Shown one piece after another: positions 53,845 to 56,854 of a stretch of 56,854 nt of DNA. This DNA comes from Candidatus Heimdallarchaeota archaeon (lineage in GTDB: Archaea > Asgardarchaeota > Heimdallarchaeia > JABLTI01). Within the stretch, counting starts at the first letter, position 1. Every line of letters starts with the position of its first letter. The position numbers and the translations under genes were made by a program. Below the pieces are notes generated by a model that saw nothing but the letters and a program-made list of their open reading frames with translations, ran no database searches and was not told where the DNA came from. The stretch lies in assembly GCA_019058165.1 (NCBI GenBank), contig JAHLVZ010000008.1, positions 1 to 56,854 of the forward strand. Direction: 5' to 3'.

Positions 53845-54591
53845 TTGTCGCGAAATAAAATAAATGACTTGGCATTAGCCAGAGAAACACAATTAATGTT
53901 TACTTACACAGAAGGATTCAGTCCAATAGGAAGTGAACTTAATCGGTGGAAAGGTGAAATTCTCGTCAAAATACCTCAAGGAGAACGAGCAATACCAGTA
54001 GAAGTATTGGTTCCCTTAAAGTATCCTGAATATCCACCAAAGGTTATTGTCATAGAGAAGAATATTCAGCATCCAAATATTGAAAAGAATGGAAATGTGT
54101 TGCTGAAGATTACTCACGAGTGGAAACCTGATGTACATGTTTATCAAGTAATTCATGCGTTACAAAATCTATTCAAAAAAGTTCCACCACAATTTACTGA
54201 TACTGCTGGTGCAAAAATCATCAGTAGAAAAGCAACAGTACAAACAATCGATTCTGCAAAAAGTGCAAATCAACAAAAAGTGGACACTGTAAATCAAACA
54301 ATCACATCTTTGCAAGACAAAATAAGAGATAAAGATGATGAATTACGAAAACTGCGAGCGGAATTAGTAAAAGGATCAAATGAAAAAATTGCGAAAATAG
54401 ACGACATTGTGCTACCAAAAGATAAAGCTAAAAGTGAGAAATTAATGGTACAAGCAAAAAGCATAGCAATAGCAGATCTTCTTTCCACTCTCGATGAGAA
54501 ATTCAAAGATGGAGAAATCAGTCCAGTTGATTTTTCAAAACTTTACAGAAAATACACAAAAGAATTGTATTTAATTCATAAGGAATTATAA
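53845..54591 (+). CDS. ESCRT-I Vps23/TSG101-like protein: UEV domain + coiled coil + steadiness box
   Basis: LMFTYTEGFSPIGSELNRWKGEILVKIPQGERAIPVEVLVPLKYPEYPPKVIVIEKNIQHPNIEKNGNVLLKITHEWKPDVHVYQVIHALQNLF (E2/UEV fold, no catalytic Cys); C-terminal SIAIADLLSTLDEKFKDGEISPVDFSKLYRKYTKELYLIHKEL. Confidence 0.9.
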   Translation: MSRNKINDLALARETQLMFTYTEGFSPIGSELNRWKGEILVKIPQGERAIPVEVLVPLKYPEYPPKVIVIEKNIQHPNIEKNGNVLLKITHEWKPDVHVYQVIHALQNLFKKVPPQFTDTAGAKIISRKATVQTIDSAKSANQQKVDTVNQTITSLQDKIRDKDDELRKLRAELVKGSNEKIAKIDDIVLPKDKAKSEKLMVQAKSIAIADLLSTLDEKFKDGEISPVDFSKLYRKYTKELYLIHKEL

Positions 54592-54615
54592 ACGAAATAA
54601 AAAGAGGAAATAAAA

Positions 54616-55254
54616 ATGTCATATTCGTCTAAAAACAAATCACAAGTTGAATTGGAAGCAGAATTATTCTCATGCATTGCAACCATTGATAATTTAAGTC
54701 AAAGCTTTGCAGATGGAATTTTGGATCCAGGAATGTATCGTCGACAACTAAGAGCACTAATTAGAGATGCATTTAAGGCTCGCTTTCAGCTACAAAAGAA
54801 AGGTTTTGATTTGGAAGGTTTTCTTGCTCGAGAAAATATTGTAAAGAAATATCCGTATGGAGCAGAAAAACTCCGATTTGCTGAAGGAGTAGCACCAATT
54901 CCAATTGATGAGTCTGTGGAAACCGTAGCTATGCCGTTTGCTTCAATGAAAAATCTACCAGCAAAAAGCGCTGATTTTGTTGCAGGTGCTATAGAACTAA
55001 TTGATTTGTTAAGACTTGGTTCCGTCGCCAGGGTTGAGCTAATAGTTCCAAATCTTGATGAAATGGAAGCAATTCTAATTGATTTTCCAGGATACGGTAA
55101 AGATTCTGATGTTGTCGAAGAAATAAACAATTGGAAAGAAATGCTTGCAGCAAAACCACCCGACGAAGTCCTAGAAGAGGGCTTAATAAAACGATTGGAA
55201 TTTGAAGCTGTAAGATGGTTAAATGGATTCAGAAGATCATTAAGAAATTCCTAA
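54616..55254 (+). CDS. ESCRT-I Vps28-like protein (N- and C-terminal domains)
   Basis: ELEAELFSCIATIDNLSQSFADGILDPGMYRRQLRALIRDAFKARFQL (Vps28-N-like) and ADFVAGAIELIDLLRLGSVARVELIVPNLDEMEAILIDF...EEGLIKRLEFEAVRWLNGFRRSL (Vps28-C-like). Confidence 0.85.
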   Translation: MSYSSKNKSQVELEAELFSCIATIDNLSQSFADGILDPGMYRRQLRALIRDAFKARFQLQKKGFDLEGFLARENIVKKYPYGAEKLRFAEGVAPIPIDESVETVAMPFASMKNLPAKSADFVAGAIELIDLLRLGSVARVELIVPNLDEMEAILIDFPGYGKDSDVVEEINNWKEMLAAKPPDEVLEEGLIKRLEFEAVRWLNGFRRSLRNS

Positions 55255-55323
55255 ACCAGTTTGATTTCATTCTTTTACTACAAAGTATTTGAAAAATCTA
55301 ACAGCTATCAAGAGGTAAAGCAC

Positions 55324-55626
55324 ATGCGTGGAAATCCTGTAGCATACAGAAACTTATTCCGACATTTACGTGAAATACTAAATTATCTCGAGATAGCATT
55401 AGATGCAGATTTCGTATTAGAAGAATTAAATTCCGCAATATTTGAATGTGAGAAAACATTCGGTAAAAGACATCAATGTACCATTCAACTTCGAAATCAA
55501 ATGAAAGATTTGTATAAAAAATACATAGATAGAAAAGCTTTACCACTTAAAGAAAAAGATGAGAAAAAACTGAAAAATAAAATCAACGAGTTATTGAAGA
55601 AGTATTATCGAAAACCACCGACATAG
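55324..55626 (+). CDS. Small helical basic protein in ESCRT operon, function unknown
   Basis: MRGNPVAYRNLFRHLREILNYLEIALDADFVLEELNSAIFECEKTFGKRHQCTIQLRNQMKDLYKKYI...; ATG at 55324 preceded by AGAGGT, preferred over TTG at 55261. Confidence 0.8.
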   Translation: MRGNPVAYRNLFRHLREILNYLEIALDADFVLEELNSAIFECEKTFGKRHQCTIQLRNQMKDLYKKYIDRKALPLKEKDEKKLKNKINELLKKYYRKPPT

Positions 55627-55695
55627 ATGGTTAGATAATTCGAAACGTTATAATTATCATTCGTCCCTAAAAATCCTAGTGAGGTAAGAAGAATC

Positions 55696-56421
55696 ATGGG
55701 TTTAAGAGATATAGAAAAGAAAATCAGAATAAAATCGGCATACAAAACAAAAGAAGCTGAATTAATGATTAATGATCTTGAACGTATGCTGGAAAATATA
55801 CGTGAGCTTCATAGTCAATTAAAGAAATTCGAAAAGAAATGGAAGAAAGATATAGAGAAAAATAAAGACTCCTATATGAAATTAGTGGAACTTAGACAAG
55901 AACTAGGATTACCAAATGAATTAGGAATATATGAATGGAAAGAAAGTGCAACATTTTGGGATAAAGTAGGTGGTGGAGATTTCTTCGAACGACTTGGCGT
56001 TGAGATTTTAGAAAAAGCCAAAGAAATTCAAGAATATACAGGAGGCTTAATGACACTTGGCGAAGTTGTTTTACTTGTCAATAAAGGTCGTCCTGGCAAA
56101 ATTATTTCATCAAAAGATGTTGTAGAAGCAATTGAAAAACTTTCCAATGCTAAACTCATACCTAAACCAAAAGAATTGAAGAGTGGAGTAGTCCTTGTGG
56201 AGTTCATTCCAGCAAATCTATCTGATGATCAAGAAGAAGTTCTTGCTCTCTCTACCAGAAAAGGATGGATTTCTATAGAAGAATTATTGTTAAAAACCAG
56301 ATGGACACAAGAGAGATGTGAGCGTATACTTGAATCTATGAGAGATGCAGGTATTGCTCGAGTAGATGCAAGTTATGCAGAAGGTAAGAAATATTACTTC
56401 CCAGGTTTAGGCGGAAGATAA
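55696..56421 (+). CDS. ESCRT-II EAP30-domain protein (Vps22/Vps36-like)
   Basis: ATFWDKVGGGDFFERLGVEILEKAKEIQEYTGGLMTLGEVVLLVNKGR..ISSKDVVEAIEKLSNAKLIPKPKELKSGVVLVEFIP...GWISIEELLLKTRWTQERCERILESMRDAGIARVD: helical hairpin plus two winged helices. Confidence 0.88.
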   Translation: MGLRDIEKKIRIKSAYKTKEAELMINDLERMLENIRELHSQLKKFEKKWKKDIEKNKDSYMKLVELRQELGLPNELGIYEWKESATFWDKVGGGDFFERLGVEILEKAKEIQEYTGGLMTLGEVVLLVNKGRPGKIISSKDVVEAIEKLSNAKLIPKPKELKSGVVLVEFIPANLSDDQEEVLALSTRKGWISIEELLLKTRWTQERCERILESMRDAGIARVDASYAEGKKYYFPGLGGR

Positions 56422-56478
56422 GAGTTATACTTGAAAAATGAAAATATTATCAGCTTGATTGCTGATAATCCTTTATTT

Positions 56479-56854
56479 TTATTCATTATTTTTGTCATAA
56501 GTAAATTCGATAGTCTTAGGTTTTTTCTTCTTCTTTTTCTCTGATTTTTTCGTGGTCTCTTCTTCAAATGAAATTTCTTTCGATTCTTCCACTTTGTCTA
56601 TATCTTGCTCTTTCCTAAATTGGATTCCCTCCATAACATAGGCGTACACTAAGAATCCAGATATGGCAACAAGAATTAACACACCAACACCAATTTTCCA
56701 AGGCATCAAATAATTAGGGAGTCGCCCCATTGCACGCATTTCTTCTATCCACGTGTAGTAAGAAACTTTGGAGTCTCCTGAGTGCGTGCACAATCCAGCA
56801 GTACTATGAGGTTCCAATAAAGGAGAATAAACCAAGCTAAGATAACCAGAAGGA
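56479..56854 (-). CDS. Single-TM protein with K/E-rich tail, 5' end possibly beyond the window
   Basis: Open frame continues to the window edge; TM (WKIGVGVLILVAISGFLVYAYV), then charged tail. ORF-track start at 56835 is only a TTG. Confidence 0.65.
   Translation of the reverse strand, partial: PSGYLSLVYSPLLEPHSTAGLCTHSGDSKVSYYTWIEEMRAMGRLPNYLMPWKIGVGVLILVAISGFLVYAYVMEGIQFRKEQDIDKVEESKEISFEEETTKKSEKKKKKKPKTIEFTYDKNNE

Follow-up and report, generated by a model that had tools for sequence, protein, structure and literature searches.

A four-gene ESCRT-I and Vps22 operon in a Heimdallarchaeia genome and a small vps28-linked protein family remotely related to the Vps28 C-terminal domain

Introduction

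The ESCRT genes of Asgard archaea are central to the origin of eukaryotic endosomal sorting. According to the part of Makarova et al. (2024; PMC10936438) that concerns their gene neighborhoods, the typical Asgard arrangement places vps25 with vps4 and ESCRT-III genes, and vps22 with vps23 and vps28; the same part reports that some Asgard genomes encode the Vps28 C-terminal domain (Vps28-C) separately, besides a full vps28. Ubiquitin-ESCRT clusters of Asgard archaea were also described by Hatano et al. (2022; PMC9192718). In Heimdallarchaeota AB125, the locus numbers of Vps25 (14040), Vps22 (14050) and a UEV-Vps28 fusion (14070) nearly follow one another (PMC9192718); the main text of that paper does not refer to locus 14060, which falls between the numbers of Vps22 and the fusion.

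Here we describe an operon which shows exactly the split that Makarova et al. set out in the part cited (PMC10936438), being a clean genus-wide case of an ESCRT-I plus Vps22 module apart from Vps25-Vps4. With the clusters of Hatano et al. (PMC9192718) it shares UEV-Vps23, Vps28, Vps22 and the presence of ubiquitin in the same genome; it differs from AB125 in having one gene for Vps23 and another for Vps28, and in the location of Vps25 and Vps4 on another contig. Both the operon and its separation from Vps4/ESCRT-III are thus already known (PMC9192718 and the cited part of PMC10936438). Eukaryotic ESCRT-I (Vps23/Vps28/Vps37/Mvb12) and ESCRT-II (Vps22/Vps36/Vps25) have the Vps23, Vps28 and Vps22 domain families in common with this locus, but, unlike them, the operon has no Vps37, Mvb12 or Vps36. 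To our knowledge, no eukaryotic ESCRT-I contains an extra Vps28-C-like protein. What is added here is the extent of the family of the third gene (ORF3), the clade that it forms, its strict linkage to vps28 and an observation on AB125 locus 14060.

Results and discussion

Gene content and organization of the operon

The window, that is the whole stretch of 56,854 nucleotides analyzed, is contig C49 of a 3.36-Mb metagenome-assembled genome (253 contigs, 86% complete, 6% contamination), which we take to be part of Gerdarchaeales in Heimdallarchaeia. The operon encodes the front, cargo-recognising half of the ESCRT membrane-remodelling machinery, and its features are as follows.

53845 to 54591, plus strand: ORF1, Vps23/Tsg101-like protein with an N-terminal UEV domain, a coiled coil and a C-terminal steadiness box; TTG start, GAGG upstream
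54616 to 55254, plus strand: ORF2, full-length Vps28 with a steadiness-box half and a four-helix C-terminal domain; VPS28 E-value 3.2e-7
55324 to 55626, plus strand: ORF3, 100-aa protein, predicted to have four helices, a stand-alone Vps28-C-like domain; ATG start, GAGG upstream
55696 to 56421, plus strand: ORF4, Vps22-like EAP30 protein (ESCRT-II); EAP30 E-value 2e-24, residues 1-224
56447 to 56468, no strand assigned: perfect 8-bp stem closing a 6-nt loop, with a T-rich run after it, read from the sequence TTATCAGC-TTGATT-GCTGATAA

A previous sequence-only reading had proposed four closely spaced genes on one strand at 53845-56421, and this is what we find, with gaps of 24, 69 and 69 bp when ORF3 is read from its conserved ATG. 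Its proposal of GAGG-type ribosome-binding motifs also stands as to the motif, although not as to the number, since GAGG precedes all four genes rather than three once ORF3 begins at ATG 55324; on the plus strand of the window, only 2.7% of ATG, GTG and TTG triplets have GAGG shortly upstream. ORF3 is carried by all nine genomes of the genus (9/9), and the gene order is identical in the relatives read. The stem-loop sits between convergent genes and, judged from its sequence, is likely the 3' end of the operon transcript. The neighbor beyond it, noted earlier as an opposite-strand gene at 56479, does extend over 56479-56853 on the minus strand; it encodes the C-terminus of a conserved ~450-aa protein, truncated by the contig end, which has a membrane segment and no Pfam family (also found at L043 8783-10132).

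ORF1 is conserved across the genus and matches the Pfam families UQ_con (7.6e-14) and UEV (9.9e-9, above cut-off). Its most conserved part is the segment at residues 188-243 which matches Vps23_core with an E-value of 1e-4, its 22.7 bits being below the Pfam cut-off of 26.8. No cysteine occurs in the first 120 aa and the E2 active-site position is occupied by Leu, thus this UEV should not act as an active E2 enzyme; a UEV lacking the catalytic cysteine together with a steadiness box at the C-terminus is the arrangement of Vps23/Tsg101. ORF2 matches VPS28 (PF03997) along residues 15-208, covering positions 2-187 of 188, so that the N-terminal half and the C-terminal four-helix domain lie within a single protein, which differs from the steadiness box and Vps28-C on separate genes described in the cited part of Makarova et al. 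(PMC10936438). When the PDB was searched by sequence with the Vps28 alignment, matches were obtained to the C-terminal half (2j9w) and to the N-terminal half (2caz, 2f66). Moreover, an AlphaFold2 model built from the nine-genome alignment (pLDDT 77.5) retrieved 2j9w, 2j9v and 2g3k in Foldseek, all of them Vps28 C-terminal domains, with probability 1.00 and E-values of only 0.02-0.2. ORF4 covers positions 1-218 of 219 of PF04157, and by this match is predicted to have both the helical part and the tandem winged helices of EAP30 proteins, a family present in 200 of 227 Asgard genomes. The earlier assignment of the locus to ESCRT-I/ESCRT-II therefore holds, given the cysteine-free UEV, the Vps28 model matching solved Vps28 C-termini and the EAP30 protein.

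The rest of the pathway in the same genome

CHMP, Vps4 and ubiquitin genes had been reported as missing near the operon, which is correct; they are found elsewhere in the same genome. The separation from the ESCRT-III/Vps4 machinery that had been suggested on this basis holds as far as the 253-contig draft shows: Vps4 (MIT, AAA and Vps4_C) adjoins Vps25 on contig C240, two Snf7 proteins are encoded by single genes on C246 and C10, and ubiquitin ending in Gly-Gly is encoded on C2 and C200. As predicted from these genes, the ESCRT machinery of this genome is complete in kind.

After one of the Snf7 genes, on the same strand, there is a gene for a Gtr1/RagA-type GTPase (L003 4686-6332). The ubiquitin loci (L125 4495-4728 and L126 2465-2698) encode an identical protein, with 90% DNA identity over 340 bp and differing flanks; the two contigs represent either two loci or a strain mixture.

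Relationship of ORF3 to the Vps28 C-terminal domain

The sequence-only reading had left ORF3 as a small helical protein; profile comparison with hhalign and profile cross-hits assign it as a remote Vps28-C paralogue. ORF3 and Vps28-C profiles align with a probability of 94% over 88 collinear columns and a score of 44-46 (45.6), a rerun giving 93.9%, while 100 column shuffles reach at most 19.3 and the reversed profile 15.9. The same ORF3 profile compared with Vps28-N, EAP30, UEV and the steadiness box gave values of about 11% or less in all cases. In the search of 227 Asgard genomes, the ORF3 profile weakly matched three vps28 genes (G016, G049 and G046), in their C-terminal regions, and a multidomain protein of G083, in which the matching region corresponds to Pfam VPS28 positions 93-183; further weak matches beyond these four have no explanation. 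In two genomes of family f23, a protein of 466-472 aa with no Pfam family (L127 330-1730, L128 5-1423) has C-terminal 90 residues that match the profile weakly, with E-values of 2e-6 and 2e-5.

In a tree of 18 ORF3 rows and 24 rows of Vps28-C, a single branch with support of 100/99 divides the two sets, the ORF3 of G014 being a long branch of unsure exact placement, and profiles built leaving one family out score the held-out ORF3s at 50-93 bits, compared with at most 27 bits for Vps28-C. Both results indicate that ORF3 is one family and not a series of repeated recent duplicates. By these sequence comparisons, ORF3 is a remote paralogue of Vps28-C, forming one clade apart from it, and is probably the separately encoded Vps28-C reported in the cited part of Makarova et al. 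(PMC10936438).

The identity between ORF3 and Vps28-C is only ~15%; none of the ORF3 members reaches the Pfam VPS28 model, and no sequence match of ORF3 to a solved Vps28 was obtained in the PDB. No convincing family was found for ORF3 in either Pfam or NCBIfam. Its AlphaFold2 model has four helices with a pLDDT of 61, and Foldseek of this poor model returned no Vps28. The underlying alignment is shallow, comprising the window and the genus genomes only; with these nine genomes, an acceptable model that retrieved the correct PDB entries was obtained for Vps28, thus the procedure is adequate when a protein is better conserved.

Other assignments of ORF3 were rejected. The TTG codon at 55261 as a start is not conserved and is not preceded by a ribosome-binding motif; the relatives all align from the methionine at 55324, with MRGNPV common to them. 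Matches to type VI VasL or other Pfam families have E-values of 0.02-0.15 and are scattered across members. A second half of a split Vps28 was discarded as both halves are already in ORF2, and a steadiness-box or Vps37-like protein as the profile score is near background.

Distribution of ORF3 and its linkage to vps28

Using a nine-row profile, relatives of ORF3 were detected in 36 of the 227 Asgard genomes; a broader profile yielded 43 strong members among the 227, belonging to seven families and several classes. Families f1-f3 lie inside the class of the window genome and f9, f10, f11 and f29 outside it; the f11 members were first spotted by their position, in the gap after vps28, before any profile included f11. 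In pairs with estimable synonymous sites, dN/dS of ORF3 is about 0.04-0.11. ORF3 is absent from many of the Asgard lineages among the 227 genomes searched, thus it is not a universal part of ESCRT-I.

In all 42 testable genomes vps28 precedes ORF3 by 50-113 bp on the same strand, the 43rd being at a contig edge, and in 37 genomes ORF3 is directly followed by EAP30. A stretch of 1.5 kb separates ORF3 from vps22 in four genomes (G002, G006, G007 and G036), and in G014 vps22 is 4.8 kb away on the other strand with ORF3 still at vps28. As ORF3 remains with vps28 in all five genomes in which vps22 is displaced, we consider it tied to ESCRT-I more than to Vps22. By synteny with f3 genomes, AB125 locus 14060 is probably an ORF3 orthologue.

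Possible role of ORF3 and proposed mechanism

The observed gene content, homology, conservation of the operon, vps28-ORF3 linkage and single ORF3 clade lead us to a reading that we regard as probable, in which the four genes would be transcribed as one unit serving cargo recognition and relay in a ubiquitin-ESCRT pathway, with ORF3, a diverged copy of Vps28-C, as an accessory ESCRT-I subunit. Ubiquitin binding by Asgard UEV domains was demonstrated for Heimdall and Odin relatives, and in Asgard relatives Vps23 binds Vps28 and ESCRT-I contacts Vps22, linking Vps28 to Vps22 (PMC9192718). By analogy with that work, Vps23 would bind ubiquitin via its catalytically dead UEV domain and pair with Vps28 through their steadiness boxes; the C-terminal four-helix domain of Vps28 would touch ESCRT-II through Vps22, and ESCRT-II, made of Vps22 and the Vps25 encoded beside Vps4, would recruit ESCRT-III. 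ORF3, presumably a free and diverged Vps28-C copy of single ancient origin, would be produced in step with Vps28 and most likely be an accessory ESCRT-I subunit offering an additional bundle on which ESCRT-II or ESCRT-III could dock; as to its binding partner, we infer that it would be shared with Vps28-C, a prediction for which this family provides a small, expressible candidate subunit. The published study of Asgard ESCRT interactions makes no reference to ORF3 in its main text (PMC9192718).

More specifically, and only tentatively, ORF3 could be an undescribed, anciently duplicated ESCRT-I subunit that bridges to ESCRT-II/ESCRT-III by means of a second Vps28-C bundle, in which case it would resemble the factor that Hatano et al. 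(PMC9192718) proposed between the two complexes in Odinarchaeota. The same inferred domain, devoid of the steadiness-box half for tethering to ESCRT-I, would also suit a decoy or regulator competing with Vps28-C for ESCRT-II and limiting coupling; nothing speaks directly against such a role, yet the tight vps28 linkage suits a subunit equally, and we hold it to be unlikely. The relationship to Vps28-C itself might be questioned, as the very low identity, the Foldseek search that found no Vps28 and the lack of a direct sequence match to solved Vps28 are what would be expected of an unrelated small helical protein with convergent helix patterning and some other vps28-linked role. However, the collinear 88-column match far exceeds both the shuffled and the reversed controls, and Vps28-C domains were matched when 227 genomes were searched without selection, which makes convergence quite improbable. 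We give still less weight to ORF3 being the Asgard counterpart of Vps37 or Mvb12, a third or fourth subunit which would result in a eukaryote-like ESCRT-I heterotetramer: a small, helical protein tied to vps23-vps28 that keeps to vps28 where vps22 is displaced would fit, and a recognised Vps37 is missing from Asgard genomes (PMC9192718), but the profile matches Vps28-C at 94% against 11% for the steadiness box, none of 18 ORF3 members has a Pfam match to Vps37 or Mvb12, and 100 aa leaves little room for both a stalk and a headpiece; a replacement of these subunits in function alone is conceivable.

Other genes found between vps28 and vps22

The stretch between ORF3 and vps22 in G002, G006 and G007 contains an opposite-strand gene of ~445 aa, NusB/RsmB-like by eye (L047 6516-7841), which interrupts the operon in these three members of the genus, and that of G036 (L109 1400-2635) contains two opposite-strand ORFs resembling transposon genes. 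In family f6, ORF3 is replaced between vps28 and vps22 by an opposite-strand gene (L085 1477-2823, L086 1604-3055, L087 1405-2748) with nothing firm in Pfam; its product has N-terminal zinc-ribbon-like motifs and may be the Znr_PH_CC_SB protein named in the cited part of PMC10936438.
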